Assembly (NCBI RefSeq): GCF_032118995.1
Contig: NC_092652.1
Coordinates: forward strand, 23,363,044-23,427,043
Reading direction: 5' to 3'
Length of the DNA: 64,000 nt
Origin: Asterias amurensis
Lineage: Eukaryota > Echinodermata > Asteroidea > Forcipulatida > Asteriidae
Shown here: one piece after another, positions 15,454 to 52,800 of the stretch
Numbering within the stretch: position 1 is the stretch's first letter
Layout of the letters: every line of letters begins with the position of its first letter
Notes under the pieces: model-generated
What the model was told of the DNA's origin: nothing
Database searches by the model: none
The model's input: only the letters and a program-made list of their open reading frames with translations
Position numbers and translations under genes: made by a program

Positions 15454-15839
15454 TTAAAGGCAGTGGACACTATTAGTAATAACTCAGAATAACTATTGGC
15501 GTTAAAATTAACTTGGTAACGAGTAATGGGGAGAGGATGATATTATAAAACATTGTGAGAAACGGCTCCCTCTGAAGTAACGTACTTTTCGAGAAAAAAA
15601 GTAATTTTCCACGAATTTGATTTCGAGACCTCAGATTCAGAATTTGAGGTCTCGAAATGAAGCATCTGAAAGCACACAACTATGTGTGACAATAGTGTTT
15701 TTTCTTCCATTATTATCTCGCAACTTCGACCACCAATTGAGCTCAAATTTTCACGGGATTGTTATTTTGTAATATGTTGAGATACAGCAAGTGAGAAGAC
15801 TAGTCTTTGACAGTTATCAAAAGTGTCAAGGATCTTTAA
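15454..15839 (+). repeat. TIR element, family B, copy 7
   Basis: TTAAAGGCAGTGGACACTATTAG at the left and GTCAAGGATCTTTAA at the right, with a full interior. Confidence 0.85.
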
Positions 15840-17224: not shown

Positions 17225-17382
17225 ATAGAAAACATGCTTCAATGATGTACACAGATGCATAACATAGAAACATCCAAAGTTGAATGATCACAGCTATAGT
17301 TCTAGTTTACCACTCGTTTGGTTGTGACATCCAAATCCTTAGATGTGAGTTTTGGCTGTTTTGTGGCCACATCTTTAGAATC

Positions 17383-17519
17383 ATGACTTCGGGAAACCGT
17401 CTGAAGTTTGTCCTCATCAGCTTAACCGCCTGGAGTGTTCTTTCATCGGTGGGTGGTGAGGGGACCGGCATCGGCGGGGATGGAACCAGGTTCCGACGGC
17501 GTAGAGATTACCACGGCGG
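17383..17519 (+). CDS. Receptor exon 1: signal peptide
   Basis: Encodes a basic n-region (NRLK), a hydrophobic core FVLISLTAWSVLSSV and a small-residue end (GGEG), then an Arg-rich stretch (RFRRRRDY) that could be a furin-type site. The donor is GG|GTAAGA, leaving two bases in phase with exon 2. An upstream in-frame Met at 17284 exists but would bury the signal peptide. Confidence 0.8.
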
Positions 17520-23500: not shown

Positions 23501-26500
23501 AATGCAACGTTGGCGAAGGAGGCTGTTTACAAGTAACTACAATGAATGAAAGCTTAAATTTGTGTTTCCTTATTAAATGTTTGTTAACATATTTACTTTG
23601 TTTCCTTTTTTTTTTTGGGGGGGGGGGGGCGGACAGATCAAAATATCATGTAACAAAACTGGACTGCTTTGACAGTACATGTGTATATTATATTAATTTT
23701 GGTTTTACCCATACACGATGTGTGTTAGCACTGTATACTCAGTACTTTCCCCGAGTCCTGTGAAAAATATCACAGGCATGTTACTCGGGTGGGATTCGAA
23801 CCCACGACCCTTGCAATTCTAGAGCAGTGTCTTACCAACTAGACTACCGAGGTTGCCCGGCAGCTAGAGGCAGTTCGAATCCTATGTTTTGGCAGCGGGT
23901 ACCGCAACGATATATGCCATTGACAGTATGAAATAATCAGTCTCTTACTGCCAAGTTTGAGAAGCATTCATCCGGCCTTTGTTTGCAGCATGACCTCTCC
24001 TGTTGTGTTGGCATCTCCCTACAGTTGGTACAAACACACCAGCTTGGTTGGGTTTGATGAGGTCTCCAAGATGTTTACGCCAAGTCCTGGCATCTGCTCA
24101 CATAGTACCTTCAACAAGAAATTCATAACCATTGATATAACTTATTAGTTCTCGACAATTTTATTTTTTATTGTTTGAAAGGTCACACTTCTTTGAAAGA
24201 ATTCGGGCTGACTTGGGTACGAGTTGACTTGGGTACAATATTTTGGGTAAACTGTTAAAAATATACAAAAAACATTTAATAAATCTGTACTATTTAGTAT
24301 TTTTAAAATGTACTTCTACAATTTTTACAAAAGTCCTCCCCTTCCCAGCCAGATAAACGGCTCTTTTAATTGTAGCATCAAAGTAAATTCGGGTAAATTA
24401 TGCCAAGTCATTAGGACGCTGGACACTCGATGAAAATCCCCACCCCCCATCTATGCACCAAGTGAATAGATCTACAAAATTACATGTAAACTAGTCATAG
24501 TACATGTACATTTATGTACTCTCACAACTCAGTGTTGCGGCTGTCATGGCTGTGAATTTACGTGTCATGTCCACAATAATAACCAACAATAACATTGCAT
24601 TGGGTATAAACAATCACGGTCCGTTCTCTCTCTCTCGTCGGCTAGTCCATGTCCCACTACATTATTCTTACCCTGATTGGCGAGGTGTCCGTTCCTTCTT
24701 TTTGGACGTGTCTTCAATCATCTCTTTGCGTAGAGCAATGAGCTGAATCTGTGTTTTTCGGCGATCCATTTTGACAGCAAAATGGTGTGTTTACATTTCA
24801 CACAACGTCGTATGGTAGTGAACGGTATGTTACCTCGTGTTCTTCTGGTAGGTTTACCAGGCTACGGCGCCAGCCTAACTGCTGTACATCGCGCATAAAC
24901 GGACGATCGTTTTGACGGCTTGAAAAACGTATATATTTCGCGGGCCATGTTTCGGGGTCAGAGGTCAGTGTTTGTTTTTTTTAATTACCATTCACTAATT
25001 ACAACACATTAAATGTGTTTTATTGCAAGAACAACTCTAAATAAGTATAAGGAACACCCTCAAACGTGAAATTTTGTGAAATCTGAAGGCAACGTGTTCC
25101 TTTAACTTTTACAAGATTGCCGTGCGATGACGTTTTTCCAAAGATCAATTGTTGCGCATAAAATGGGGGCTAATCTGCAAATTGGCCCTGGGTATCGGTT
25201 TGTACAAAATGTTACGATGTTACATTAATGTTGATCGCATTATGCCTTGTAAATTATGATTTTATTTCCTCCTTTTAGTTATCCGGACGAGAACGAGGTA
25301 ACCACATGTAATTGCGCGTCGCAGTCATCCAACCTTGAATGTAAAACACCAATTTCAGGTAAGTGCTATCAGTTTAGTTTTGATGGCTATAGTAAAACAA
25401 ACACAACAACTAAAGACAAAAACAACCCCACTGGGATATCGCATCTATCCATAAACAAAGTCCATTGGAATTTGAGGTAAAACTCTTCCCTCTTCCCTCT
25501 GTTGCTTTGTTTTTGTCTTTTCAAGCGCTTTGAGCACCTTTTTATGTAGATATTTTGCAATATAAGTTTTCCTTTTTATTATGGAGGAAACATATAGACA
25601 CTGATGTAAAGCCTCATTATTTTACTGTTCTATTGGCACTGGACACGATTGGCAATTACTAAAAACAATCATTGTTAGCATATCATACTTATTGCTTAAC
25701 GTGCAATGGAGAGCTGTTGATAGTATAACACATTGTGAGAAACGAATCCCTCTGAAGTATTAAAGCCATTATACACTTTCGGTACAGAAAACAAATTAAA
25801 AGTTCACATATTTACAAATAATTTACAGGGTTTACAGAAGGTAATGGTGAAAGACTTATCTTGAAATATTATTCCATGAAGTGCTTTACTTTTTGAGAAA
25901 ACATTAAAACAATATAAATTCTCGATAGCGAGAATTACGGATTTATTTTAAACACATGTCATGACACGGCGAAACGTGGGGAAACAAGGGTGGGTTTTCC
26001 CGTTTTTTCTCCCGACTCCTAAGACCGATTGAGCCTAAATGTTCACAGGTTTGTTATTTTATAAATAAGTTGTGATACACGAAGTGTGGGCCTTGGACAA
26101 CACTGTTTGCCGACAGTGTCCAAAGGCTTTAACGTAGTTAAAAAATAAATAAATAATCAACCGTTGTTTGTTCTGATTAAAAGTTTTGCAGTCCTGAAGG
26201 TTCTTTTGGGGCATCTGGAAGCACACAACTTAATTTGTGTTTCATGTCATTATTCTTTTGCACAACTTCAAATTGAGTAAAAATTTTCATGGGTTTGTTA
26301 TTTTATGCATAGTTGGGATACACCAAGTGAGAATACGGGAATATACAACCGAGGGGGGAAATGGCACCCGAGGCGAAGCCGAGGGTGCCATTGCCCCCCC
26401 CCCCCCCCCGAGGCCATGGACCCCAATCACAGCGTGCAACAATTGTCTCGTTATACCTTTGTAACATTAATATTCCTCTTCTCAAAGTTCTATTGTTATC

Positions 26501-29500
26501 TTCAAACATTATTACGACGGACTATTCATTGTTTAATAAGCAGACGAACGAGAAACATTTCCTGACTGTTCCCTCGAACCCGCGGTTGTTTCGTACACAG
26601 CGCTGGAAATCGACCAACACTGGGAACGATTAAGGTGATGTACCCCGGTGTACATCACTTTTCATGTTACCCGACCCCCCGAGCCATGATGTAACACGCG
26701 TTTTTGTTGCACGTCACGTGATTGGTTCTCGACTAATCAAACTTTACAGTTTGTTACCGAGGTATAACAATGTTGTTTATCTTCAAGTACGCGCTAATCC
26801 TCCAATCAGATGGGCAGAATGGAGTGGTGATAAAAACCTTTATAACACCCCTTGCAAGTATTCTGCCTGCTCATTGGTTTAGAGCGCGTCACATGACATG
26901 TCTTAGTTTTGCTAGACGACGGCCGTCGGTTTGCCATGCGCTAGTCCGAAGACTAGCACATGGCGCCGTGCGCTAGTCCGACAGACTAGCACACGGCGTG
27001 CAGTACCCAGACGTTCGTTGCGTGTGCGAGTATGACAAATTAATAGTCTGTAACCATTTCGGATTGCACGACTCTACATGCAACACAGTAAGTAAAAGTG
27101 TTTGCAATCTGTATTCGCGTCGTCAGTGGATTGTAGCATTCAGGTCTGTAACTTAATAATAATAGTACAGTATTTAGAAATGTTTGGGGTGTTATAAAAC
27201 AAATATTGACTGCTTTTACTCGTGCAATGGTTAAAAACTATGACTCCCTCGGTGATCCCCGGAGCGTTTTATTTTCCCTCGGCTTCGCCTCGGGAAAATA
27301 GAACGCTACGGGGATCACCTCGGGAGTCATAGTTTTAACCATAGCACTCGACGCAGTCAATATTTGTATAATATTGCACGGCTAATATCACTACCATGCG
27401 TCTTGTGTGTTCTATGTCACGCGCCAAGTTTGCTTGAAGATAAATACGTTATCACACGCGCGCTCGTGGAAATACGGAAAATATAGCGCGTCTGCGTCCC
27501 ATATCCAACTCGGCCTTCGGCCTCGTTGGATATGGGACGCAGAAGCGCTATATTTTCCGTATTCCACTCGCGCTTGTGTGATAACTTATAGTGTTGCGTG
27601 CGTGCTTCATTGATGTACGCGTTTTGACGCGCATACGGTTTGATCTACAAGATGGCGACTTTCACAGCAAAAAAACAAACGGTTATTCAATATACGGTCT
27701 ACCGTGTATCTGAATAAGCGTGTCTGAATAAGCGGCTACGTCTACGGCTACGGCTACGGCTAGATTTCCGCGTCATCATGCGTTGAAGTATAGGACGTCC
27801 TTAGCATCACCCTTACCAACAGCCATAGCCGTAGCCAGCAATTCCGATAGTGCCTTAGTCTCATGTCAAACTTAAAAGCCTACTGTTCTTTTTCAGAGCT
27901 CGTAGATTTGACTTCGTGTCTCGTTTTCTCACTATAACTTAACTTAACTTATATGAATTTATAAAGCGCTTTAACACTGTCAAGAAAAACATTAAAATGC
28001 AGGATTAAAAAACATGAGCAAAAATAGCAATATGGTTTTTTTTTTTTTTTTTTTTTTTAATACACAACAGTTAAAAAAGTAGCAACAATTTAGTAAAAAA
28101 AAAATAGCAAAATTTAGTAATAATTACTACAAGTACTAGTACGAGAATCATTGATAATTTCCATTCCTTTGAACCAAGAACAAACATTATTATACAAATA
28201 TTGATTGGTTCGAGTGCTATGGTTAAAATTACGACTCCCGAGGTGATCCCCGGAGCGTTCTATTTTCGCGAGGCGCAGCCGAGGGAAAATGGAACGGTCC
28301 GGGGGTCACCGAGGGAGTCGTAGTTTTAACCATTCCACGAGTTAAAGCAGACAATGTTTGTTTTATAACACCCCCAACAGACTATTTATCATCCTCGCAC
28401 ACGTAACGTTCGTACGCGCGTTTCAGATACGCAGATGCACCACTGATTGGGTATGAGGTGGGTAAAAGACGTCTGGGTACTGCACGCCGTGTGATAGTCG
28501 TCGGACGGCAAACGATGCACTATCACACGGCAAACGATGCACTATTACACGGCCGCCGTCTAGTAAAACTAAGACATATCATGTGACGCGCTCTAAACCA
28601 ATGAAAAAACAGAATATTTGGAAGGGGTTTTATAATTTACTATAGCTTTTTAGCAACACTTGTTCTAGCCTAGCCCATGTTTTCAATCACGTACCTCTCT
28701 CGTATCTCTGTTTTTGTTTTCCAGGTTGTGAGCCGGGCGAGTTACAACACAATAACTCGTGTTACCGATTCGAGACGGGTGGAAAATCACGTGATGATTC
28801 TGTGGAGGACTGTATACAGCATTACAGCCACCTTGTATACGTAGAGACACGTGAAGAACAGACATTTCTGGCTGGAACTCTGCGTGGAAACTCTTCCTTG
28901 CGCGGTGAAGATTATTGGTTGGGACTGGTTGCCGTGGACGTAACATATGTTTGGATAAACGGGAATGCATCGATAGCTTCAATGTTGCTTTCAAGAATCG
29001 AGGACGATGGTGGCAACTGTGTCTTCCTAAGGTTTGGGGGATTTTTTGTGGCAAAGATAACAATTCAAACAGGCGATTGCAACGAATACAAACGTTCTAT
29101 CTGTGAAAAGACTGACCAGGGTATGTTAATTATATTAAGCAATATTCCAGCTTTAAATCTTCTATATGGTTAGATACGATAGTGAGAGTATAACGTACTT
29201 GGAACAGTCATTCCCATAAGAGTTACCAATAAATACATCGAAACATGTATGTCACACTGGAATAAAACCATACCCCACACCACCCCTCCCCGTCCCACTC
29301 AAAAGGGGGGGGGGGGTAAAGAAAAGTGAGAAACAACACAAAAAGAAAACTTATTTCAAGTTCATTCGTTCAAACGATTGCTTAATAAGTTTTTGAACGA
29401 CATTCATGGGAACTTGAAGATGGTTTAAACAAGATAATTAATCAAACGGTTGACTTATTCTCGACAAGTCACAGTTATAAATTCGAACGAACTAGTGAAA

Positions 29501-32500
29501 CGCTTGTTTCTCATCTTCGTTTGTTTCTAATCTTCGTTTTTGTTTATAGGTTGTTACACTTGGTGTATCTCAACATATGCATGAAATAACAAACTTGTGA
29601 AAATTTGAGCTCAATTGGTCGTCGAAGTTGCGAGATAATAAAGAAAGAAAAAAGCACCCTTGTCACACGAAGCTGTGTGCTTTCTGATGCTTGATTTCGA
29701 TACCTCAAATTCTAAATCTGAGGTCTCGAAATCAAATTCGTGGAAAATTACTTCTTTCTCGAAAATTACTTCTTTCTCGAAAACTACTCGTTTCGACTAG
29801 CTTGCTCTAGTCATCGTCAGGACCAAAGATTATAAAGCGCCGCAAGGCGCAAGATGCGGAACTCGGGCTGAAATGTGAAATCCCACTGGATACCATTTCG
29901 GCAAGTAACTCTTTTGATACAACAATAGATCAGTGCAGTTCAGTGCAGACAATGACCATTCCTATCAATGGGAAACACAACATTCACTTGCTGAAATGGC
30001 GCCCATGCGTATTTCACGTTCCAACAATAGATAAAGCTTCAGTTCCGCATCTTGCGCCTTGCGGCGCTCTATAATCTTTGGTCAGGACACTGAAGAGGTA
30101 GAGAGGAGTAGGCTTATTTATAGGGGTTCAGTGGACCCACTGCAGGTCAATCAATGCTCTGATTGGTTGTGTGGTTGGCGGGCTCAGGACCATTGTTAGG
30201 GTTGCCCATTGTGTGAGAAACCTCTCGGGTGTAGTGAGGCGTGTCAGTAGGTTGGTGGTTGTTAGAGGAGGAGGGTGGTAGGATAGTGTGCCAAATGCTG
30301 CTGATGAAATAGCCGATATCTTGTGGCACAGTGTCAACTCTACCTGTAAGTAGATATACACACATGGTGTTACCCCACCATGCAATGCCTCAAATCCTGA
30401 ATATGAACAAGTTAATTGGTGTATACTTCATTTAAACTATTAAATTGCATACACAAAATATTGTACACAAAGAGTACACAAAAGCCTTACTCTTCAAATA
30501 ACTATTGTATTTACTGGTAATTTGGTTATTATAACTTGTCCTTATCCAGAATGTTCACTATTATGTGTTGTCCTTGTAGCTTGTGACGAGTATCCGAATT
30601 CTTGCTACGCCGTTTCCGATGAGAGCACGGAGACGACAACACGTGACGAAGCCTCTGATGCGTGCAGTGACTTGGGAGGACACCTGCTGTACATCGAAAC
30701 GGACGAGGAACTGGAGTCCATACGAACAAGTAATTTGCCCGATGGAGACTATTGGATAGGTCTGAATGTGATTCGTTATCGATGGATGGACGGAACCCCA
30801 GCCCTGTTTGACACATTTGAGTCTCGTAACGGCGACGACGGTAACGAATGCTTTCGGATAAGACATAATAAAAACTTCCAGTGGAATGACAAGAGTTGCA
30901 GTGTGAGTTACGGTCGTATTTGTGAACGAAGAACTATGGCATCAGTTGTATCAGGTACTTTTTGTTGCTGTTTTTATAATTTTTTTATTTATTATTTTAA
31001 ATTTGAGCTACTTAAACTTAAAATTAAATAATACACCACAAGGGAAATTGACTGTGTGTATTTTAAATGATTTGGGATTGGACAAAACATGGTTATTAGA
31101 GCGGGATTTGAACCAACGACCTCACGATTAACGGAGACGAAACCGAGGTTTGGAAAAGGTCCATAAGCCTCATGAGATACCAAAGAGCTTCCGCTGCTAA
31201 ACCAACACTCAAATATGCTGTTAAAAAGGAAGATTCTTAATGTGGTCACTTAAGGTACACGCAGCGAGCTGAACAGGGGGACACCCAAACATTGACTGAA
31301 AGCAAGTAATTATGTCAATATATCTTATTTATATATTAAATATAATCTTCTTTTTGAATTATATTTCCTACTAATTTCATATTTTAACACATTTTGTAAT
31401 CAACTATTATATTTAAATTTAAACCTAAACAATGATGTTCTTTTTTTAAGAAACCCCTTTGTTTAACCATGCATCAATAGCTTTAGTGTGCGACCATATT
31501 ACAGGTTAATGACATCGCGTCAGTTGGGCTTTATTCTTAAGTATCTCGAAACGGAGGTCAATTCTTCTTTGGTTTTCTTTGATGAAGTTGTTAAATTGGT
31601 TTTACTTTAATATTTCATGGCAAACTTTTGCTTTACACGAAATAAATGTAATAGCCATCACTGCGTTAAACTGTTGTACAAGAAGTAACATATTCGCACA
31701 CACGTAACGCAAAAACATTCAGGAGACATTTCCGAGGTTTTAGTGAAGTGCTCGTGTGCAGATTGTTTGCAAAATGCTTCTGTCTAGTTAGACTTGGCTC
31801 AAGTCCCTAATCCCGTGCCATCGTCAGAAAACTGCTTTGTGATGCTCTGCATTCCCAAACCCGTTCCGTGCTCGGTACTGCAATAGCTACATTTGACGGT
31901 GAGGGCGGACTGGTGTTAGGCCTATCAGAGCCGTATATTGGGAAAGTTACGACAATGTGCGATTAGAAGCCATTTTGTTCCCCCAGAAAACGCATGGGTG
32001 AACACGAGGTGTCAGACTAGTCTGCCCATTGGGTTGTGCTACAAAGAAAACTGGTCCATCCATGTCGCAACTCTCTCGATACACAGCTCTGAGGCCTATG
32101 TGTCTGTACTTTGGCTGCATAAAACTGGCGCGTGTGTTGGCGCGTTACGTGTGTTTAGGGACCTCGCACGAGAATGGGACTTGAATAAATTTACGGTCTC
32201 GGCCAAACACTCGTGGTGATTATGATTATAATGATGACGATGATTATTGTGATTGAGATGGGGGGATGGTGATGATGATGATGACGATGATGGCACCATG
32301 CACTTTCCTAATTTTCTTATGTTCTCCGGGGGACGGATCCGTCGTCCCATTTTGTATAGATGCAGGGACTGATTGGTGCCAGTCTTCAATTCCTTATGAT
32401 TTGATGCGTCTTACTGGGCGTGGCGCCTTGTGTTTTGATGCCGGTGACGATAGCTCAACTCCTGTGCTCCGTAGATGTAATACTGGAGATAATGTCGAGG

Positions 32501-35500
32501 GATGCAGCTGCTACAAGGAAACGTGAGTTAAATCACAACGCAACACAAGTTCTAAAAAAAAAAAAACATCCAGTTTTGTGTTACTCACTTTTTTCTTAGT
32601 TCAAATAAAATTTAAAGGAGAAAGGGGAAACTTGCAAGAAACTGTTTAAGCTTGTTTTCAGCCTCGATGTCCAATGAATTGTCCAGATTTATAAAATGAA
32701 AACCAAATCTGATTTTTTTTTTTTTTTTTTTTGCAGCGATAAGCCGGTTAAATGCAGCTGTGGCTTTTGCAAACTCAGTTCCAACGAACAAGGTAAGAAT
32801 GTTATGCACCACCTGTTTTCAAAGAGTTAAAATAACATGTCCCCCAAAAAAACCTACACTTTCTAATTTAAAAAAGGGCACGAAATTGGTTTTCCCGGTT
32901 CTACCTCTGCTTTTTGTAAACCACTTCGAATTGTTTATTTTGTTCAGGTCAAGAACTGTGGCCGTCTGAGTTCAATTGTTCCTGCTCCAGTAGCTTATAC
33001 GAGACGAATTTCACTATCATAAAACCAGGAGAAGACGCTGGATTCCAATGTCCATCGGATGGAACGCCTGCAACACCAATTTCAACAGGTTCACAGATGA
33101 CAACCAGCATGTCACCGGTTCGAACTACTACTGATGATAGAACTCTACCGCCCTCTACCACTAGACAGCTTTATATCAGTAGTCATGGGACATTCCCAGT
33201 GGTGACTGCTGGTGCGGAGACTAGTTCGAATAGAGGCGTTGATACAGCCACTTCGACAGGACCGGTCACTTCTTCGACTACCGAAGAGAAGGGTAATGGG
33301 ACCGGCGACACTGCGGCTAGCAACGGCGGTGCAACTGCTGCTGGTGTCATTCTAGCCATTGTATTTTTGGTGCTGCTGCTCGTTGTGGCGTGCTTTGTTT
33401 GGAGGAGAAAGGGAAGGAAACTATCAGAGGAAAGGTCGGAGAGGCAAGTCTGGACTGTTGAACTTCAAGGGTTTGGGTACTTTTGTGTACCACAAAACAC
33501 AATGTCCACAGATTAACATTAAACATACATAGTTTGAAGATAAAGATGGTATAACGCTTCCCTTAAAATATTACTTCCTTAGTTGCTTTAGTTTTTGAGA
33601 AATATGGAAAAAAACAACGTCACGAAAATAATTGTCGTCTAAGTTTTAGCATGTAAAACGTATTTACCAGTTTTGGTATACAACTTTTGGTATATAGTGT
33701 GTACCGGTGGACATATTGTGTTTTATGTCAACAACATTGTCATACAAAGGTACCCAAAACCTTCAAACAGTGTTAAAGCAAGCAATAATTCATTATTACT
33801 TTTTCTATAAGTCTGGGCACATCAACCAAAGATCTGAAAGCGAAAAAACCTAGGGGTCGGATGTACTCTCTGACCAAGACTTAAACAGGGTTCTGACTAC
33901 TCTCATGACATGACCCGTGACGTCACTTCCAAGCCAAACTATGGGTGCGTTCGTTTAGCTTCCTTGGGTCGACCCCGGTGTGTGGCGTTTTTTTTTTCAA
34001 GGTCGAATGTGTACAGATTATAACCCACGTTCGTCCTGGGAAAAAAAAACCGCCACACACCGGGGTCGACCCAGGGAAGCTGAACGAACGCACCCAATAT
34101 CAACAAAGAATGTATGCGCCGCTCAAGATGACACGCTGAATTGTTCTAAAAGTTTGATTGTGGTTTATTATGTAACCGTTAATCAAGTTGTGTGTGTTTT
34201 TGTCCCTTGTAACATCCACTCTTAACAGATCGGGCAATTTACGAGCAGCAAAGAACCCCGGGGCTTCAGGACAACCTGAAACTGGTAAGTATTTTACTGA
34301 AAATGCTCAGTCTCACAGTTAACTATGGTTTGCTTGTCGTAGTTTCTGGTAGATAGCAGTTTGTAATCAATTTCCTTGACATTCCTTGCAATGATGTAAT
34401 CATGCCCAAGAGGGCGCTATTAGTTTGGATAAGTCCAGAGCTGTGTATTGAGCAAGTTGCGACAATTTGCGACTAGACAAAATTTTTGGTCCAAAAATCC
34501 GCGCGTGTGTTGGACCAAAGATGGCGTCTATAGTAGCCGCCTGACCGAAGCCAGCGACCCTAGAAATAAAAAAAAATTAAAAAACAGCAACAACAATGTT
34601 GAATTTATTTAAAAAAATTACAGATTATTAAAAAGGCTTGACTGTCTTATGATTAAGTATCGACGAATTATTTTTATTACAATTTAGCACAGTCACAACA
34701 AAAACGCATTAAAGGCAGTGGATACTATTGGTAATTGTCAAAGACAAGCCTTCATGGTTGGTGTATCTCAACATATCCATAAAAAACTAACCTGTGAAAA
34801 TTTGAGCTCAATCGGTCATCGAAGTTGCGAGATAATAATGAAAGAAAAAAACACCCTTGTCACACAAAGTTGTGTGCGTTTAGATGGTTGATTTCGAGAC
34901 CTCAAGTTCTAAATCTGAGGTCTCGAAATCAAATTCGTGGAAAATTACTTCTTTTTCGAAAACTATGGCACTTCAGAGGGAGCCGTTTCTCACAATGTTT
35001 TATACCACCAACCTCTCCCCATTACTCGTCACCAAGAAATGTTTTATGCTAATAATTGTTTTGAGTAATAACCAATTGTTCCCGAAACAAGGTTGTTGAT
35101 TGGTCCATCTTGTTTGCCGCGAGTGCATAATGTGTGTTGCCATTGTACACAGTATCATTTCGATCGAAGATGGCGGCGTGATGACGTTAATACACAAAGT
35201 CTACCTGGTCACACAGCAAGCGGAGAACTTACACATTGGCAGTACGCCTATGTATTTATACCTAATAAAGAATCAAGTATCAAAATCGTTTGCAGTATAC
35301 CCGCTGCTTAAACATAGGATTTGAACTGCCTCTAGCTATCGAGATAGCTAGTTGGTAAGACACTGCTCTAGAATTGAAAAGGTCGTGAGTTCGAATCTCA
35401 GCCGAGTAATATGCCTGTGATTTTTTTTTCATAGAACTTGGGTAAGTACTGAGTATACAGTGCTAAACACACATCGGTGTATATGTGTAAAAACCAAATG

Positions 35501-37648
35501 AATATTCTTCATCCCCGATGCAAATTTAACATCTATTAAAAAGACTCAAGCACGTTATCTTATACAATTTGCACTTTTTCTCCAGACAACCCTGCATACG
35601 GCCTCGATGAAATCGAGCTCTCAAGGCAAAACGATCTGATCTTGAAACCAGTTCAAGGCGTCGGTGTCCATGGCGCCAGCAACCCAACGTATGCCATCGG
35701 AGACGAACGAGAAAACTCAGTAGATTATACTAACATAAAGGTGGGTTCAACATGTTTGTATATAGTTAAAGGCACTGGGGTGGATTTCACAAAGAGTTAG
35801 GACTAGTCTTATCTCGAGTTAGGACCAGTTACTTGTCCTAACTTAGGACTACCCATGCAATGTGCGATGACTTGTGTGAACAGTATTCGTGCGATGTGAC
35901 AGTGTGTATACGGGTTGGTCATTCGGTGTGATCGCACACACCATGCACAGGGTATACGGCGGGTGGGTTTACAGCTGCGTCTTTTCGGAGCGAATAATGC
36001 GACTGCCTTGAGCAAGGCTACAGTTAAAACGGCTGGAAACACGTATACGCTGGCCTTTTACAGCTTTGGAGTTTTTTAATAATTGTTCGCTATGTACGTG
36101 ACATTTTTACAGCAACCATCTATAAAAACATTATTTACACCCCTAAATTGCGTAAACGGTGAGCCGGTGTGTCCCTTTAAGTTATTCTCGTGGAAAGTCA
36201 ATCTAGTTGCGTCCCAGGGATATCTGTCCGCCAGAGATTATGTCCCCTATGATGGGAGGGCGCTGTCAGAAGAAGTTCGTACAAAGTTTGCCGTATGGGA
36301 AAACTGATTCCAAACGGGGGGGGGGGGGGGGCTGAATTTCCTGCCACACCGGAACCGAGCAACCTGCCTTCCACGAAACTGTTGGTATAAATTACAGGTG
36401 GTGCACTTCATAGCTGATGGAGTTGCACGTATTATGCGTATCGCTCTCCGAACTTGGCCCTGCAATCCTCATCCATAAAATTGCCGATGCATTTCGTTAC
36501 TCTTATTATTTTGTATTATACATGTATTTGTTTATAGGCCTAAATATGATCATTGTTTTATGTTACAGTCGCCTGATGTTAAGAGCGAGTCTCGGACAAA
36601 TACCTACACAGACATCCAACCAAGAGGTTATGAAGCGTATCGCCCCAATCCTCAACCAGATCCTTACACGAGCTTAAAGGGTGCCACCAAGGATCACAAC
36701 GAAAATGACGGCCCAGCGATTTACACGCCGAACCCAGATAACACTGGAGAGAGTTACGCAACTATCGCCTCCAGCGGCTACACTGCGTATAACCCCACCA
36801 CCGAGCGAGACGATGACGTGTACACCGATCCTAAGAGTACCAGGGACACTAATGATGACGACCCGCTGGTGTACACGCCAATACCAAACAACGACCGAGG
36901 TAAACCAACGAAGAAAGTCACTGATGATGACGATGATAGGTATGTTGGCCTGGAGGATGTTGTCCCGCAACGTCCTGTCGCGGCTACTTCGACAACAACC
37001 CCATCGGCTCCAAGAGGCAGTGACGACGCCTACGTAGATTTCGATGCCGAACCCCGTGTGCTGAAGCCAATCGTATCACCAAAAAAGAAGAGTGGTGATA
37101 ATGGGAACTACGTCAGCATGGATGTTCCCACCTCAGAGGGGAACGAGGGCGATTACTACTACAAGCTTGAGAACTCCAATGCTCCCCATGATGTAGATAC
37201 TGAGGCCGCCAAAACCCCGCAAGAGGATCATACATACAATTCATTGGATATCAATGCAAGAAAGATAGCCCTTCGCCATAACAACGCAGTCGTCCCTGAC
37301 AACAACACATACAACTCATTCGACCGCACCCCTATGAGACACGATGTACCCAAGGGCACTGGTCAGTCTTCCGCACAAGGCAACATTCACGGCAAGGGTA
37401 ACGCCAAGGATACCAACGCGTACGACGTAATCAACCGTACCGGCCGTGGCGTGAAACACCCCGTAATAGTGGCTGACGATGGAGACTACAGTCTCACGGT
37501 TCCAGTACCCAGAGACGACACCTACAACTCCTTCGATCGTTCCCACCACGACAGAAATAACAAGTTGAGACCGAAAAATCAGGCTTCTGAGAACGAGTAC
37601 GGCTCGCTCGAGAACACCGACGATGGCGAATACTCTACGCTCAACTAG
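17383..37648 (+). CDS. C-type lectin type I membrane receptor with ITAM tail (10 exons)
   Basis: Predicted CDS: 17383-17519, 25279-25358, 28725-29120, 30580-30954, 32360-32522, 32737-32792, 32948-33443, 34229-34284, 35586-35740, 36569-37648. All junction phases agree and the total, 2994 nt, gives 997 residues. Order: signal peptide (1-25), Cys-rich piece, C-type lectin domains (about 73-204 and 205-329), Cys-rich module (330-440), Thr/Ser stalk, helix (about 533-554) followed by RRKGRK, and a 440-residue tail with about 26 tyrosines. The tail has two NPxY, a VDYTNI ITIM-like site and a C-terminal ITAM (Tyr982, Tyr993). Inferred role: surface recognition receptor signalling through SH2 proteins. 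The start was chosen because the Met directly precedes a hydrophobic leader. The exon 5 acceptor could instead be 6 nt later (32366). Intron 7 uses a GC donor. Homologous exons recur at 49.8-55.1 kb. Confidence 0.88.
17785..18168 (+). repeat. TIR element, family B, copy 9 (in receptor intron 1)
   Basis: TTAAAGGCATGGACACTTTTAG at the left and GTGTCCAGTGTCTTTAA at the right. Confidence 0.85.
18790..19175 (+). repeat. TIR element, family B, copy 10
   Basis: TTAAAGGCAGTGGACACTATTGG at the left and GTCCAGGGTCTTTAA at the right, with a full interior. Confidence 0.85.
19254..19637 (-). repeat. TIR element, family B, copy 11 (opposite orientation)
   Basis: TTAAAGACACTGAACACTATTGGTAATTGCC to GTGTCCGCTGCCTTTAA. 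It lies only about 80 bp from copy 10 in inverse orientation, so the pair could form a long hairpin. Confidence 0.85.
19690..19915. repeat. Diverged, partial family A palindrome
   Basis: TTAAAGGAACACGTTGCCTTCGG start and a GCCATTTATGGGGGTCAAGATTTTGACTCCCATAAATGGC hairpin in the middle. The right arm is missing. Confidence 0.7.
20105..20215. other. GC-rich, CpG-rich patch of unknown origin
   Basis: About 100 bp of GC-rich DNA (CCCGGGGCCGAGCGGCTGCC ...) in otherwise AT-rich intron. No frame, tRNA or rRNA fold was recognised. Confidence 0.3.
20872..21032. repeat. Palindromic element with CCACGGCTTCGGCT arms
   Basis: CCTTTTCAAAACCACGGCTT is mirrored by AAGCCGTGGTTTCGAAAAGGG. A related element follows the paralogue gene at about 55120-55262. 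Confidence 0.7.
21263..21640. repeat. Inverted-repeat element with GCCTGGGCGAC ends
   Basis: Begins GGCCTGGGCGACCAGTG and ends CTAGTCGCCCAGGCTTA. The subterminal GACTAGTCGC/GCGACTAGTC words recur near both ends. Confidence 0.65.
22258..22500. repeat. Strongly decayed family A copy
   Basis: Recognisable words are TGCATATGGTTAGAAAGGATG, GTAGAATAGAATGATCAACACAAG and GGTGGTTTTCCTTT. The right half is mostly lost. Confidence 0.55.
23008..24769 (-). CDS. Candidate small gene inside receptor intron 1 (unrecognised)
   Basis: First candidate exon 24672-24769 starts at an ATG in good context (CAAAATGG) and encodes a charged peptide beginning MDRRKTQIQLIALRKEM. It ends at a clean GG|GTAAGA donor. A phase-compatible acceptor at 24140 opens a frame encoding YINGYEFLVEGTM, then a TGA (24098-24100), then 50 more open codons (containing ARTWRKHLGDLIKP) to 23945. 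A possible last exon, 23008-23100, encodes GSMMYTTNDFATQPAFTDN... to a TAA, but its phase does not obviously match. No family was recognised. It could be a real nested gene with wrongly guessed inner exons, or a decayed copy. Confidence 0.3.
23311..23446. repeat. 130-bp palindrome with GCCGATTTCACGAAAC arms
   Basis: The left arm GCAGCCGATTTCACGAAACT is mirrored by GTTTTGTGAAATCGGCTGC. The interior has GCAACTGC/GCAGTTGC words. Confidence 0.85.
23693..23920 (-). repeat. tRNA-derived SINE, type 1 (minus copy)
   Basis: The minus strand reads GCCGGGCAACCTCGGTAGTC TAGTTGGTAAGACACTGC (A box), then GTCGTGGGTTCGAATCCCAC (B box). A non-tRNA body with TACTGAGTATACAGTGCTA and a GTAAAACCAAA end follows. 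The same body is found in the plus copy at 35326-35535. The tRNA part is well kept, but there is no sign of a free tRNA gene. Confidence 0.75.
25279..25358 (+). CDS. Receptor exon 2: small CxC...C module
   Basis: Encodes YPDENEVTTCNCASQSSN then LEC. The acceptor is CCTTTTAG and the donor AG|GTAAGT; it starts in phase 2 and ends in phase 1. The paralogue exon at 49842-49927 has the same phases and the same CxC-x(8-9)-C pattern. Confidence 0.75.
25631..26340 (+). repeat. TIR element, family B, copy 12, split by a family C insertion
   Basis: The family B left part (GGCACTGGACACGATTGG ... AAACGAATCCCTCTGAAGTA) is interrupted at 25760 by a complete family C element. B-like sequence resumes after it (GGCATCTGGAAGCACACAACTT ... 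GGGATACACCAAGTGAGAA). Confidence 0.75.
25760..26132 (+). repeat. TIR element, family C, copy 1 (nested in family B)
   Basis: Starts TTAAAGCCATTATACACTTTCGG and ends GACAGTGTCCAAAGGCTTTAA. The interior has CTCGATAGCGAGAATTACGG and CATGTCATGACACGGCGAAACG. TTAA is at both ends. Other copies are at 57002 and 62727. Confidence 0.85.
26830..27375 (+). repeat. Dispersed element J, plus copy
   Basis: Shared words with 28200-28640 in reverse: TCATTGGTTTAGAGCGCGTCAC, CACACGGCGTGCAGTACCCAGACG, GGGTGTTATAAAACAAA, and a CCCTCGGCTTCGCCTCGGG palindrome. It begins with TTTATAACACCCC and contains GGTGTTATAAA in reverse, so inverted-repeat ends are likely. Confidence 0.7.
27447..27590. repeat. Perfect-looking hairpin, about 140 bp
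   Basis: GGAAATACGGAAAATATAGC is mirrored by GCTATATTTTCCGTATTCC around the centre CCAACTCGGCCTTCGGCCTCGTTGG. Confidence 0.85.
27715..27862. repeat. Palindromic element with GGCTACGGCTACGGC arms (copy 2)
   Basis: Same family as 9385-9525: GGCTACGTCTACGGCTACGG, a CCGCGTCATCATGCGTTGAAG core, then CCATAGCCGTAGCCAGCAATTC. Confidence 0.7.
28037..28060. repeat. Poly(T) tract
   Basis: An uninterrupted run of about 24 T. Confidence 0.9.
28200..28640 (-). repeat. Dispersed element J, minus copy
   Basis: Reverse-oriented copy of 26830-27375. Its right end is 85 bp from receptor exon 3, so the two copies form an inverted repeat just upstream of the first lectin exon. Confidence 0.7.
28725..29120 (+). 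CDS. Receptor exon 3: first C-type lectin domain
   Basis: One exon encodes the whole domain with six cysteines in long-form spacing (GC..SCYRF..DCIQ..GNC..GDC..SIC) and the YWLGL core. The Ca2+-site motif EPN/QPD is absent, and the WND motif is replaced (FVAKITIQTGDC), so calcium-dependent sugar binding is unlikely by the usual rule. Asn-x-Ser sites: HNNS, GNSS, GNAS. It is bordered by phase-1 introns on both sides, the classic layout of a shuffled domain. Confidence 0.85.
29549..29795 (-). repeat. Partial family B element
   Basis: Starts at ACACTTGGTGTATCTCAACA and runs to a duplicated CTTCTTTCTCGAAAA word. Both TIRs are missing. Confidence 0.7.
29796..30090. repeat. 280-bp palindrome with GCGCCGCAAGGCGCAAGATG arms
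   Basis: GACCAAAGATTATAAAGCGC is mirrored by GCGCTCTATAATCTTTGGTC. It is flanked by GTTTCGACTAGCTTGCTCTAGT, a word also found near 61090. Confidence 0.8.
30580..30954 (+). CDS. Receptor exon 4: second C-type lectin domain
   Basis: Six conserved cysteines (AC..NSC..DAC..NEC..KSC..RIC), YWIGL, RWMDG and a FQWNDKSC motif, so the WND half of the calcium site is kept. The EPN/QPD motif is not seen; the loop reads GTPALFDTFESRNGDDGNEC. Phase-1 introns on both sides allow exon skipping or duplication without a frame change. It retains more of the ligand-site signature than the first domain. Confidence 0.9.
31080..31200 (-). repeat. tRNA-like SINE fragment
   Basis: The plus strand reads GCGGGATTTGAACCAACGACC, i.e. 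a reversed B box, then CCTCACGATTAACGGAGACG. Only the head is visible. Confidence 0.4.
32225..32292. repeat. (GAT)n-rich simple repeat
   Basis: Imperfect GATGATGATGATGACGATGAT run in receptor intron 4, ending near exon 5. Confidence 0.8.
32360..32522 (+). CDS. Receptor exon 5: Cys-rich module, part 1
   Basis: Encodes DAGTDWCQSS ... ALCFDAG ... RRCNTGDNVEGCSCYKE. The donor is AC|GTGAGT. The phase-1 start matches paralogue exon 50291-50429. The acceptor is taken as TTTGTATAG; CAG six bases on is equally in frame. Confidence 0.7.
32737..32792 (+). CDS. Receptor exon 6: Cys-rich module, part 2
   Basis: 18 codons (DKPVKCSCGFCKLSSNEQ) after a long poly(T) acceptor tract; donor AG|GTAAGA. Equivalent to the paralogue exon 50977-51020 (KTCSCYDED). 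Confidence 0.75.
32948..33443 (+). CDS. Receptor exon 7: stalk and transmembrane helix
   Basis: Starts with a last Cys group (FNCSCSSS ... GFQC), then a Thr/Ser/Pro-rich stalk suited to O-glycosylation, then the helix AGVILAIVFLVLLLVVACFV and stop-transfer RRKGRK. It ends GAG AG|GCAAGT, a GC donor. Read-through would add about 23 residues and stop at 33516, giving a short-tailed receptor. Confidence 0.85.
33475..33780 (-). repeat. Family E element in receptor intron 7
   Basis: Shares GGGTACTTTTGTGT, AATGTCCACAGATTAACATTAAAC and CTTCCCTTAAAATATTACTTCC with copies at 44936, 46965 and 61300-61680. It begins almost directly after the GC donor. Confidence 0.65.
33941..34099. repeat. 150-bp palindrome with GGGTGCGTTCGTTTAGCTTCC arms
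   Basis: The left arm continues GGGTCGACCCCGGTGTGTGGCG and is mirrored by CGCCACACACCGGGGTCGACCC and GAAGCTGAACGAACGCACCC. Confidence 0.85.
34229..34284 (+). CDS. Receptor exon 8: juxtamembrane tail
   Basis: Encodes SGNLRAAKNPGASGQPET between RSER of exon 7 and NPAYGL of exon 9; acceptor TTAACAG, donor TG|GTAAGT. Its phases (2 in, 1 out) equal those of paralogue exon 52619-52683. Confidence 0.7.
34709..35082 (-). repeat. TIR element, family B, copy 13
   Basis: TTAAAGGCAGTGGATACTATTGG at the left. The right TIR is eroded (TAATAACCAATTGTTCCC). Confidence 0.8.
35326..35535 (+). repeat. tRNA-derived SINE, type 1 (plus copy)
   Basis: TAGCTAGTTGGTAAGACACTGC (A box), GGTCGTGAGTTCGAATCTCA (B box), a body with TACTGAGTATACAGTGCTAA, and the tail AAACCAAATGAATATTCTTC ... 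CGATGCAAATTTAAC. A lone tail of this SINE is at 63590-63660. Confidence 0.75.
35586..35740 (+). CDS. Receptor exon 9: NPxY / ITIM-like tail segment
   Basis: Encodes NPAYGLDEIEL, NPTYAIGD and SVDYTNIK. Two NPxY motifs (PTB-domain or endocytic type) are followed by VDYTNI, which fits the ITIM consensus (I/V/L/S)xYxx(I/V/L) and also pYxN for Grb2. The donor is AAG|GTGGGT, phase 0. Confidence 0.85.
36210..36350. repeat. GTCCxxxTGAGATTATGTCCCC repeat, copy 4
   Basis: ATCTGTCCGCCAGAGATTATGTCCCC ... AGGGCGCTGTC, then a G-run (about 36317-36331) and CTGCCACACCGG. Confidence 0.5.
36569..37648 (+). CDS. Receptor exon 10: tyrosine-rich tail ending in ITAM
   Basis: 359 codons, Tyr- and Asp-rich, no membrane segment. 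Repeated YxxL/I/F words: YTDI, YTSL, YATI, YVGL, YKLE, YNSL, YNSF (twice). The YTPxP unit occurs twice (IYTPNPDN, VYTPIPNN), a sign of internal duplication. The last 17 residues hold YGSL and YSTL seven residues apart with acidic residues before each Tyr, matching the ITAM consensus. The paralogue tail ends before this point. Stop codon TAG at 37646-37648. Confidence 0.92.
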   Translation, partial: SPDVKSESRTNTYTDIQPRGYEAYRPNPQPDPYTSLKGATKDHNENDGPAIYTPNPDNTGESYATIASSGYTAYNPTTERDDDVYTDPKSTRDTNDDDPLVYTPIPNNDRGKPTKKVTDDDDDRYVGLEDVVPQRPVAATSTTTPSAPRGSDDAYVDFDAEPRVLKPIVSPKKKSGDNGNYVSMDVPTSEGNEGDYYYKLENSNAPHDVDTEAAKTPQEDHTYNSLDINARKIALRHNNAVVPDNNTYNSFDRTPMRHDVPKGTGQSSAQGNIHGKGNAKDTNAYDVINRTGRGVKHPVIVADDGDYSLTVPVPRDDTYNSFDRSHHDRNNKLRPKNQASENEYGSLENTDDGEYSTLN

Positions 37649-37734
37649 ATCTGTAGAAGTAAGGTGGCTTGAATAGACACCTGCAGATAATGTCAGAAAT
37701 ACTAGCGACCATGGTGTGCCTTAGCGTCCACCAT

Positions 37735-38015: not shown

Positions 38016-38519
38016 AGGTCAAGTCTTATCCGGAGTTTTTTTTTTTAGTTATTATAGTCAGGTTCCTTATCTGTAGTAGCAAAGGAAACACATAGCTCTG
38101 ACTATTTGGTCCTCCTAACCTCAGTTCGGTTTTCAATTGATTGAATCGGGGGGAAAAAAACAAGATGGCGGAAATATTGAGTTGAATTTAATTGTGTGTT
38201 TTTTTAGGGAGAGTCTAGATTGATGACGTGAGGCCAGATTACTTAAATATATGTTTTTATAAATTTTAAAAATATACACGGAAATGTATCTTTTTACATT
38301 ATTTTATTAACTCTCTTTACAACGAACTATATTAATCAAGATTTGCACTAGTGCTCAAAATTATCAATTGAAACTGAATGACAAGTGTATTAATTAAACA
38401 AGAAGTGTGTACATAACATTATTGCTCTGTCGTACAAAGTTAAGATGGCTTATTTCACTTCGCTTGTTCATTTTTTATTAAAGCGGTGTAAACCTTTGAT
38501 TTGTTTTAACCGTTCGATT

Positions 38520-39360
38520 GTTTTTATTCCCATGTTTTTAACAACATGAAAATCAATCCTCCCAAGTATCAAGCTTTGAGTATTTGTTTCCAACGCACCC
38601 CAGCTGTACCACCTAGTTTCCATATTGGTAATTCAGCCATCACTAACAGCTGTATGAAAATTCTTGGGGTTCATCTACAGAGTAATCTTAAATGGGATAC
38701 CCAGATAAGTTCAATGTGCAAAGCCTTCAACTATAAATTGTACCTTCTGCGCCAATTAAAACGGTGCTGCACTTCTATTGCTGGTTTGTTGAGTGTATAT
38801 ATTATGTATGTTAGACCAACTATTGAATATGCTTGCCCAGTCTGGTATTTGCAGCGCAAGGCTCTTCGTTTTATCTTGTCCTACGATTACTGTGAAACTA
38901 AGTCTTTTGCTGAAATTTATTCCCAGCTTGGCCTCCCTGCCATGGATGTTAGACTTGAGCTGCTCTTCGTTAATTTTGGTAAATCCCTCCTCACCTCTGA
39001 CAGATATAAACAATGGCTTCCCCCACCTAGAAACAACAACCTGAGAAATTCCAATAAACTTTGTACACTTAAATGTAGGACTAACCGTTTCAAAAACAGT
39101 TGCATCCCTTCCCTAGTTGAGCTGCTCAATCACCAATAATTGTTCTGGCCTGTAGATAGCTTGTTTTCATTGTGTAAATATTTGTAATGTATATACTTAC
39201 AGTTTTGAAATTTTATATTCTCATCTACTCTATTTTTATAATCTCGTATTGTATATTTGCTGGTTTTTGATGTTTGAATGTATTTTTATATTGTAAACCT
39301 AAACACAATTCAGCCTTTTGGCTGCTACGTTTGATTGTTAATAAACCAATAATAATAAAT
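38520..39360 (+). mobile_element. 5'-truncated non-LTR retrotransposon remnant
   Basis: Contains a 197-codon frame (38546-39139) matching the C-terminal end of CR1/Jockey-type LINE reverse transcriptases: KILGVHLQSNLKWDTQI, the LLRQLKR helix, YVRPTIEYACPVW and KALRFILSYDY. About 20 residues normally found between ACPVW and the next helix are missing in frame. The 3' end is an A/T-rich tail with TAATAATAA. The catalytic palm is absent, so it is inactive. It separates the two receptor genes. Confidence 0.85.
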
Positions 39361-49841: not shown

Positions 49842-52800
49842 CCCCGTTGGAAACAACAGCCCAGCATCGGGTGATTGTAGATGTGGACCAGGGAAAAAGG
49901 ACCGATTTCAATGTACACCGGAAGACGGTAAGAAGAACTAGATATGTTGTTATTCTTTTCATCCTAGTGTAGCATTCGTATCAAAGGCTAGCAACAAAAA
50001 TAGACTCTCACTAGTGTCGAATAAAGAGCTTGCAAAAATATTTAGTTTATTTATTACTGCCTCTAGCGGAAAAAAATGTTGTTTATTTATAATGATAGAT
50101 TTCACACCCTCAAGGTAAAAATTAATAGCTATGAAAAACTTCATAGAGCCTCAGGGAACAAATTACACAATGATTCACATAAATAAAACATGTATACGAT
50201 AACTCTGGAAACACCTATGAATCACAAAAAAGTGTTTAGGAATATTTTTGATCATCAATATAATGATAGGTATTTTGTTTCCCTACTCAGTATTTATGTG
50301 TGTGCCAAATGGTAAAGAAAAAGACATTTTTTTGGAATCGTTCCGAGACGGAAACCAGGCATCCTACACGTTGTGCAACTCAGATAATACAGGCCCATTT
50401 GAAACGGAGTGCGTTGGAATGCAACTTGGGTAAGTAACTTGGGTTAGGGTTTGAAATACGGTTAAATCAAGGTGTAGGGCTGGCGTTGGAGCTGGTATTA
50501 GGGTAAGGGTTAGGATAAAGCTGATTAGATTGGGGTAAGGGCGAGGATTAGGGCTTGGTGAAGGGTGGGATTAGGGTAAGGGTTAGAGTTGGGGCAAAGA
50601 TAGGAGCTGAATTATGGCAAGGGTTATGTTTATGATTTGGGCTAGAGTAACGGTTAGGGTTGGGGTTAATATTTCAGAGGTAAATATATGATTATTTGAT
50701 TAGGATTGGGGCTGGGATAAGGTTGGGATTAAGGTTTCAGCTATGAATTGGTTTATGGTAAGGGTTAATAAGCTAGAATGGGTTGGGGTTAGAGTTAAGG
50801 TTAGGGTTAGGGTTAGAGTTATGGTAAGGGTATGGGTGGGGTAAGGGTTAGGGTTGGGAAAGGGTTAGGTCAAGTATTTTTGTTTAATACATAAGGGGTG
50901 TTAAAATAAATAATTAATTATGCCTAAACAGGTTTTTTTTTACTTAACAATCTTTGTTCTTTATTTCTAAAAACAGCAAGACGTGCAGTTGTTATGATGA
51001 AGATGACGTAACACACATGGGTTAGTGTTTAGTGGATTAAATTCATTATATACACAAATTTCCTTTGAAATTGTTGATAATAATACACGGCATCGCACGA
51101 CAATTTGTTGGCATACATGAAACAAGTGGAAGTTGGTGGTGTTTGAATAGGCGGCTGTTGCTATAAGTCTATTGCTATCAGCATATCACGATCTAAAATT
51201 TGTAACGAGGCAATAAAGCGTGAAATCAGAATTCCTGCTTCTCCTTACCTATACACTCTTGATCTGTTGAGATGTAGAACAAAGGGTCATTCAAACAGCT
51301 TTATTCCACGTACTGCTTTGTTTTTTTGGAACTCCCTGCCTGGTGGATGTTTCCCCCATCATAAAATCTGGACTGTTTAAGTAGAATATCAGTTCGTATT
51401 GTTTGCATACGAAACCTACGATAGCAATGACCCGCAGTGAAGTTTGTTGATCCTCTATGAGGCTTCCCATATTTCTTTTCTGGGGTTAAAATACTTGCAA
51501 CAAAATTATTTTGGTCTTACAGACGTGTTTTAAGGTTGATAAATAAATAATATTTATGTTCTATGTTGCTCTTTGCTTGTTCTCATAGCTTTCTCTGAAT
51601 CCGCATTTAGTTGCACTTTCGAGGATAAAATGATGATGTACACAATTTCCAATTCGGTTTGTGAATCTACGACTTTGAAGACCACAGGTTACGTCACCAC
51701 ATTGGAACAAACAGACCCAATCACTGCGATTGGACAACCAACGTCACCTACTCAGACGGACGCGTCCGTCACAAGTTCAACCGGGGGATCGCCGCCAAGC
51801 ACCCGCCTGGTGACTAACACCGCGATGACCACTGTAGAGAGCCCTACACCTTCTAACAGGCGTGGTAATAGTATACCTGTTGCAATCGGAGTATCACTTA
51901 CCCTCATCGTTCTCTTGGTGGCGCTCATTATTTTCGTGTGCTGGAAAAAAGGCGGGAAACGATTTTGCACAAAGTCTCGCAGGTGAGTTTGGCGTCAATG
52001 TATTTTTTTTATTTATTTATTATTTTTTTTTTTGGGGGGGTAAAAATATTCGTTAAAATGTATGATATCTCTATAATAAGCGAATTATTCTTGAAGCTTA
52101 TAACATTGGGTTACTACTGTAAAACAGATATTTAAACCAAATTGGGCATAAAGTGAACCGTTGATCTTGTTTTGTATTTGATTTTTTGCTTTTGTAATGT
52201 TTTATTTTCACAATTAGGTTTTGAGTTGATGCATAAGCTTCTACTCACTGTCACTGAGAAGCTAAATTCAAATTGACTTCTCTTTCCGTGAAAACAAAAG
52301 CAATTTTTTTTTTTCATTATCGTCTTTTGAAGAGTTAACTCCCATTTTCACGTTTTAGCAAACACCATTGTGAAAACAACGCATTTTATATCGGGCGTAT
52401 TACTATTGCGGCAATCAAAATAAGCAATAAGGTAATTAATGTTCTTCGAAACATTTCAAATGATGAATGGTGCTGGTTTGAACTTTTTTGAGTTGAGCAT
52501 AAAATTGTGGTGTTGTTTTTCCTCAACAGTTCCTTTGCCAGTAATAGGTTTGATTCATTTTCATTTTTTCGTTCTGATAAAAACTTTGTGGCATTTTCTC
52601 ATTTTTAACCATTTTAAGAAAGTTCAACCGTTCCCAGACGTCAACTTTGAACCCAGCAGATAGTTCTGCATCAGCAGGAAGAGGTGAATATAATGCGCGG
52701 TGTGTCATAGGTTTCTTGTAGAGGGTGTACAGTTTAATATTATTTGTCTTTTTTTAAAGACACTGCACACTTTTGGTAATTGCCAAAGACTAGTCTTCTC

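Follow-up and report, generated by a model that had tools for sequence, protein, structure and literature searches.

Can an invertebrate lectin receptor carry its own activating tyrosine motif, and would such a motif be the switch of the receptor or one docking site among many? This question is raised by a gene in the window analysed here, a 64,000-nucleotide stretch of contig NC_092652.1 of the sea star Asterias amurensis. Its window exons encode a deposited, uncharacterized A. amurensis protein (P0001, 1028 aa) that comprises two C-type lectin domains, one transmembrane (TM) helix and a 444-residue tail ending in the consensus of an immunoreceptor tyrosine-based activation motif (ITAM). The ITAM is genuine by consensus; on present data, however, it appears to be the form that a two-tyrosine module of a larger docking tail takes in Asterias. 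Judging from the sequence, the protein is probably a self-contained lectin receptor whose tail would serve as a docking array of many phosphotyrosines, with the ITAM as one lineage-limited module.

The C-terminal tyrosine pair and the tyrosine array

The cytoplasmic features on which the argument turns are the following.

35586 to 35740, + strand: exon 9, cytoplasmic, with NPAY and NPTY (PTB/endocytic type) and YTNI
36569 to 37648, + strand: exon 10, tyrosine-rich cytoplasmic tail of 359 aa, with 23 of the 26 tail tyrosines
37589 to 37645, + strand: C-terminal ITAM-consensus segment ENEYGSLENTDDGEYSTLN; tyrosine codons start at 37598 and 37631, TAG stop at 37646-37648
DDDPLVYTPIPNN: tail peptide

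Exon 10 closes with YGSLENTDDGEYSTL, in which two YxxL/I sites form the pair YGSL-x7-YSTL (37598-37642). Acidic residues directly precede both tyrosines (SENEY and DDGEY), which confirms what the first-pass annotation had read in this segment, and the same pair is found in A. rubens. The stretch DDGEYSTLN is moreover an element of half-ITAM (hemITAM) type in the receptor's own tail.

The ITAM was rejected as a statistical rarity and is no argument alone. The x6-8 ITAM expression matched 8 times in the 63,433 residues of the six-frame open reading frames (ORFs) of at least 30 aa in the window, the C-terminal motif being one of the eight. When the 411 residues encoded by exons 9-10 were shuffled as a whole, at least one ITAM appeared in 2.2% (x6-8) or 4.9% (x6-12) of cases. 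Once 11 YxxL/I sites are given, at least one ITAM-spaced pair arises in 55% (x6-8) or 85% (x6-12) of random placements, and in 81% (x6-8) or 91% (x6-12) of cases when the YxxL/I labels are shuffled over the real tyrosine positions. By these frequencies the ITAM pattern alone proves little, and conservation must decide. Pfam includes an ITAM model; scanned at E ≤ 10, neither the last 42 residues nor the 359 residues of exon 10 matched any family, in a search whose HMMER filters lose short motifs.

Unlike the single ITAM-spaced pair, the richness of the tail in YxxL/I is clearly non-random and constitutes its main signal. The tail, counted from WRRKGRK at the end of exon 7 to the stop in exon 10, has 26 tyrosines, the last at residue 440 of 444, and 11 of them lie in YxxL/I sites. 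In exons 9-10 these 11 sites compare with 1.8 expected, a number reached in none of 20,000 shuffles, and the excess was repeated on the 444-residue tail (0 of 5000). Besides its YxxL/I sites, the tail carries two NPxY sites as well as YxxM, YxN and YxxP sites. The first-pass annotation was right about the ITAM pair and left out the rest of the 26 tyrosines.

DNA tandem repeats were considered as the origin of the Asterias array and rejected. Only two short two-copy repeat families, of 18 and 15 nt, were found in 36560-37660, the stretch around exon 10, so that nothing points to recent duplication of this DNA.

Sea-star relatives and the conservation of the tail

We assembled six related proteins, orthologues or paralogues alike, from four sea-star species: A. 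amurensis P0001, A. rubens P0002, Patiria miniata P0003 and P0004, and Acanthaster planci P0005 and P0006. Asterias belongs to the order Forcipulatida, Patiria and Acanthaster to the Valvatida. P0006 is partial, while the other five tails are C-terminally complete. All six proteins have a Lectin_C label, a TM segment and the start of the common tail; P0004 (649 aa) has one lectin domain. No relatives outside sea stars were found among the matches listed (4 of 5740, 4 of 7991 and 1 of 6317 candidates, query included), in protein searches that reach only relatives sharing short exact words, the second scoring only candidates that share most words. The third search, made with the tail alignment and aimed at shorter proteins, listed P0006 only and missed P0004, even though its length fell within the limits set and its tail was in the query; because of this miss, absence elsewhere is weak evidence.

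YxxL/I sites exceed shuffles in the four other complete tails as well (P0002, 11; P0003, 6; P0004, 6; P0005, 5), the weakest excess being that of P0005 (P = 0.028). Moreover, Asterias tyrosines are kept far more often than other residues: 21 of 24 aligned in P0003 versus 34% of other residues (P = 2.4e-7), 19 of 23 in P0005 versus 31% (P = 1.4e-6), 16 of 19 in P0004 versus 32% (P = 9.9e-6), and 6 of 9 in partial P0006 versus 30% (P = 0.03). The tail tyrosines look selected on this evidence, being kept between two sea-star orders. Each of the best 9 listed conserved 15-residue tail windows includes an aligned tyrosine. The top block, DDDPxVYTPIPNN, reaches a mean pairwise identity of 0.74 in five tails that include a paralogue from the window, followed by blocks around GYTAYxP (0.51) and DDGxYSLT (0.49); the ITAM window scores 0.14, a value lowered by gaps in two of the five tails.

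The block DDDPxVYTPIPNN is the family's most conserved cytoplasmic element, and in Asterias it fits the pattern of an immunoreceptor tyrosine-based inhibitory motif (ITIM) too, as LVYTPI. An inhibitory or mixed receptor, in which ITIM-like sites would recruit SH2 phosphatases, is a most improbable reading. Two ITIM-pattern sites per Asterias tail (VDYTNI or VDYTYI, and the LVYTPI of the top block) would suit it, as would the pattern sites of P0003 (3), P0004 (1) and P0005 (3), with none in partial P0006, and amphioxus BbLcLRR offers a precedent (PMC8211107). In Patiria and Acanthaster, however, the conserved VYTPI site has Ala at −2 and so falls outside the pattern.

How does the ITAM itself fare in this comparison? 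The x6-8 ITAM is present in two of the five complete tails, both from Asterias (P0001 and P0002), and in none of P0003, P0004 and P0005. Loosening the rule to x6-12 adds a single x12 pair, at a different tail position, in each of P0004, P0005 and partial P0006, and still none in P0003. All five complete tails have a C-terminal pair of tyrosines 11 residues apart, namely Y-GSLENTDDGE-Y in Asterias, Y-SLTGPPEGDV-Y in P0003, Y-SLPGAPADDV-Y in P0004 and Y-SLTDLPPGNA-Y in P0005. The leucine after the first tyrosine stands at +3 in Asterias and at +2 in Patiria and Acanthaster, where the motif is YSLT or YSLP, with Thr or Pro at +3. It should be noted that this pairing is partly manual: alignment A3 joins the P0003 and P0005 tyrosines to the Asterias ITAM, alignment A2 places the first tyrosine off by one, and both align the P0004 pair with the preceding Asterias module (YSLT/YNSF, 12 apart), although the P0004 pair is the extreme C-terminus. 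YSTL[ND] forms the extreme C-terminus in four of the five complete tails (P0001-P0004, not P0005), and in P0003 this end lies 23 residues past the last tyrosine pair.

Conservation of the two tyrosines and their spacing in orthologues, to which the first-pass annotation had tied its proposal, is thus partial. The pair is exact in A. rubens and the spacing of 11 is kept in P. miniata and A. planci; the x6-8 ITAM is absent from the latter two. The identity in A. rubens says little, because its tail is 94% identical overall. The first-tyrosine leucine was either gained in Asterias or lost in the others, the comparison having no outgroup. The contrast between Asterias and Patiria provides a test of ITAM evolution, since the two-tyrosine spacing is common to both and the leucine that makes the ITAM is not.

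The C-terminal halves of P0003 and P0005 contain five modules of the type DDGxYSLTxxPxxxxYxTFxR, with tyrosines 11 apart and mostly a 33-residue period. Distance-11 tyrosine pairs are in excess in all five complete tails (4-6 seen versus 1.2-1.6 expected, P = 0.004-0.025). For Patiria and Acanthaster, tandem duplication alone could yield this excess; as for Asterias, only one of the five distance-11 pairs in each tail is such a module, and the remaining four combine neighbouring tyrosines in other ways. Tentatively, this sea-star receptor family may combine a ligand sensor, an ITAM-type kinase recruiter and a LAT-like scaffold in one chain, its tail having grown by duplication of a Y-x10-Y module and its ITAM having arisen from a scaffold of spaced tyrosines. 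In Patiria and Acanthaster the module recurs mostly at a 33-residue period, and in Asterias one such pair has the exact ITAM consensus; the family is so far found only in sea stars.

The window also holds a tandem paralogue on the + strand (51543-51983 and 54193-55083), in which a TM exon is accompanied by a tail ORF of 296 aa that has 15 tyrosines and 6 YxxL/I sites. Its tail keeps the conserved YTPIP and YYFKL blocks, has no ITAM match, and ends with EGDYSLAMPLV, short of the terminal tyrosine region. No lectin domain was detected in 38-51 kb of the window by tblastn with the six family proteins (E ≤ 0.01).

It is doubtful that the ITAM pair is the main switch, that is, a doubly phosphorylated site that would engage the tandem SH2 domains of a sea-star Syk and activate defence. 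In its favour are the complete consensus, each tyrosine following acidic residues, and the identical pair in A. rubens, together with the naming of Syk in the P. miniata egg transcriptome (a passage of PMC11593052) and the oyster lectins reported to signal via hemITAM and Syk (excerpts of PMC13027682). This reading is opposed by the missing x6-8 consensus in P0003, P0004 and P0005, by the low conservation of the ITAM window (0.14 versus 0.74 for the best block, with gaps in two of five tails), by the 55-91% of cases in which 11 YxxL/I sites yield such a pair by chance, and by the paralogue tail at 54193-55083, which lacks an ITAM match. The literature diverges on the kinase. A table in PMC8662651 dates the emergence of Syk to Chordata, contrary to PMC11593052 and to passages of two other papers: PMC5978004, which places Syk/Zap70 homologues in invertebrates having CARD-CC and Bcl10, and section 10.6 of PMC10253181, which gives invertebrates one Syk-like gene plus HTK16/SHARK. 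The text of PMC5978004, searched for echinoderm names, gave a single match, a reference title.

Gene model, ectodomain and membrane segment

Ten exons between 17284 and 37648 on the + strand rebuild P0001 exactly, and this was the sole solution of the splice-junction search; the proposal of ten exons over 17.3-37.7 kb is thereby borne out, and a gene-model artefact is rejected. Eight of the nine introns start with GT and one, intron 7, with GC (donor at 33443/33444, GAG|gcaagt). The models of A. rubens, P. miniata and A. planci likewise have lectin, TM and tail parts. The idea that one invertebrate polypeptide, here of a sea star, joins two lectin domains, a TM segment and an ITAM-consensus tail also held up. 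The exons upstream of exon 9 are as follows.

17284 to 17519, + strand: exon 1, N-terminal hydrophobic, signal-like segment (exact match to P0001 plus splice sites)
25279 to 25358, + strand: exon 2, short linker with Cys, YPDENEVTTCNCASQSSNLECKTPISG (splice-junction model)
28725 to 29120, + strand: exon 3, C-type lectin domain 1 (Pfam PF00059, E = 1.6e-10)
30580 to 30954, + strand: exon 4, C-type lectin domain 2, with WND and without EPN/QPD (Pfam PF00059, E = 5.4e-15)
32366 to 32522, + strand: exon 5, Cys-rich, membrane-proximal (splice-junction model)
32737 to 32792, + strand: exon 6, Cys-rich, DKPVKCSCGFCKLSSNEQ (splice-junction model)
32948 to 33443, + strand: exon 7, end of the Cys-rich part, Thr/Ser stalk, TM helix and WRRKGRK; GC donor after it
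34229 to 34284, + strand: exon 8, juxtamembrane, SGNLRAAKNPGASGQPET (splice-junction model)

The A. rubens model P0002 starts at a Met equivalent to 17383. Compared with P0001, it lacks the end of lectin domain 1 and the start of domain 2, which is either a gene-model fault or a real deletion.

Both lectin domains exceed the Pfam cut-off of Lectin_C. PDB sequence matches include NKG2-D, CLEC9A and dectin-1 for domain 1, and the mannose receptor and Mincle for domain 2. EPN or QPD plus WND are the Ca2+/sugar-site motifs of C-type lectin domains. Reading the translations by eye, we found neither EPN/QPD nor WND in domain 1 and WND alone in domain 2, so that sugar binding is not assured. The window Pfam scan covered the ORFs holding exons 3, 4, 5, 7, 9 and 10. 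In these ORFs and in whole P0003, P0004 and P0005, no family beyond Lectin_C rose above the cut-off. The Cys-rich region (32366-32792 and the start of exon 7) passed no Pfam cut-off in exons 5 and 7 or in whole P0003 and P0005, the exon 5 ORF having no family at E ≤ 1; a whole-protein scan of P0003 gave a sub-threshold match to DUF1899 (E = 0.52).

The N-terminal hydrophobic stretch and the position of the TM segment suggest a type I topology. The ITAM sits C-terminal of the sole recognised TM segment, with WRRKGRK on the C-terminal side of the latter, and would accordingly be cytoplasmic in this topology. The TM segment is free of charged residues in all six family proteins. As a rule, a receptor with a charge-free TM segment needs no ITAM adaptor chain, so that such a partner is unlikely to be required here. 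An AlphaFold2 prediction from the six-sequence alignment had a mean predicted local distance difference test (pLDDT) score of 28.9, with 18 residues at 50-70 (567-584, the TM helix) and none higher, and the model was not used.

The ectodomain also bears on an engulfment or endocytic receptor like CED-1/Draper/MEGF10, in which NPxY and YxxL sites would drive uptake and the ITAM-like pair would be incidental or recruit Shark/HTK16; we consider this unlikely. Those receptors, too, combine NPxY and YxxL in an ITAM-like tail of a single chain, as does the sea-star protein with its 2 NPxY and 11 YxxL/I sites, and YxxL/I also fits YxxPhi sorting signals. NPAY and NPTY lie near the membrane in A. amurensis, with NPTY in P0002, P0003, P0004 and P0006, and HTK16, of Shark type, is named in P. 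miniata in the same passage of PMC11593052. However, P0005 has NSTY in place of NPxY, many conserved sites fall outside the sorting-motif type, and no such receptor was among the matches of the protein searches, whose reach is limited to relatives with short exact words. The ectodomains differ as well, EMI/EGF in CED-1/Draper/MEGF10 and only Lectin_C above the Pfam cut-off in the sea star.

A proposed docking tail and its place among known receptors

Building on the established gene model, lectin domains, TM segment and conserved tyrosine array, we infer the following course for the docking-tail receptor. The two C-type lectin domains would bind a ligand, and the charge-free TM segment would dispense with an ITAM adaptor chain. 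Upon clustering, Src-family kinases might phosphorylate many of the 26 tail tyrosines, turning the 444-residue tail into a multi-phosphotyrosine docking platform that could assemble several SH2 and PTB proteins. By the usual partner rules, PTB adaptors or the machinery of endocytosis would attach at NPxY, and SH2 proteins would be drawn to YxxL/I, YxxM, YxN and YxxP. The last pair of the Asterias tail may in addition seat the tandem SH2 domains of a Syk-type kinase. The naming of Src-family kinases, Syk, HTK16, PLCgamma, Grb2 and Cbl for the P. miniata egg transcriptome in PMC11593052 speaks for this reading.

Several points weigh against this proposal. The comparison comprises few tails (6 proteins from 4 species, one of them partial), and between A. 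rubens and A. amurensis tyrosines are kept no better than the rest (25 of 26 versus 94% of others, Fisher P = 0.52). The Fisher tests assume independent residues, and the repeats of Patiria and Acanthaster may inflate the tyrosine matches. The tail motifs are short, their SH2 partners being assigned by general consensus rules, and an immune role is suggested by the lectin domains alone.

If the tail is phosphorylated as proposed, one chain would unite a lectin receptor, an activating motif and a scaffold, which vertebrates split over receptors, ITAM adaptors and LAT. Dectin-1 and CLEC-2 are hemITAM lectins of type II, each with a single lectin domain and one signalling tyrosine in a short tail. 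The sea-star receptor resembles them in its YxxL tyrosines with acidic residues upstream, and differs in having 26 tail tyrosines. CD3zeta likewise has several tyrosine pairs with ITAM spacing, but no sizeable ligand-binding ectodomain. The macrophage mannose receptor family, met among the PDB sequence matches, shares the type I arrangement with tandem C-type lectin domains; its members, which are short-tailed, have more lectin domains as well as domains of ricin type and fibronectin II type, as against two lectin domains and a long tail here.

Closer precedents come from invertebrates. The oyster membrane C-type lectins CgCLec-TM1 and CgCLec-HTM are described, in excerpts of PMC13027682 and PMC12842671, as carrying a hemITAM and acting via Syk and ERK. 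They share with the sea-star protein a tyrosine motif in the tail of a membrane C-type lectin; compared by description only, the latter differs in its two lectin domains, full ITAM and 26-tyrosine tail. Passages of PMC12065747 report hemITAM/ITIM motifs in the Botryllus fester co-receptors, which are of type I with a long tail as in the sea star, and ITAM/ITIM motifs in the Hydractinia allorecognition (Alr) genes. These receptors have immunoglobulin-type ectodomains and serve allorecognition, and those passages name no lectin domains, unlike the sea-star case. Given that such receptors are described (PMC13027682, PMC12065747), the idea that an invertebrate lectin receptor can be self-contained and bear an ITAM-type motif is not new, and the first-pass annotation went too far in calling it a possible undescribed system. 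What seems new is a sea-star family with a very long conserved tyrosine array, joined in Asterias by a full ITAM. Among the open-licence papers listed, none was seen to describe the sea-star receptor, as judged by titles and abstract openings. Moreover, a passage of the review PMC13027682 still counts as a gap how echinoderm lectins signal inside immune cells, which gives a concrete candidate practical use.

Two minor observations concern other ORFs of the window. Just downstream of the gene, an ORF of 209 codons (38510-39139, + strand) resembles the end of a reverse transcriptase of the long interspersed nuclear element type. The phrase RSRNQIRGKLL recurs on both strands in short ORFs at 15473-15679 (−), 18829-19041 (−) and 34798-35052 (+), which suggests a dispersed repeat.

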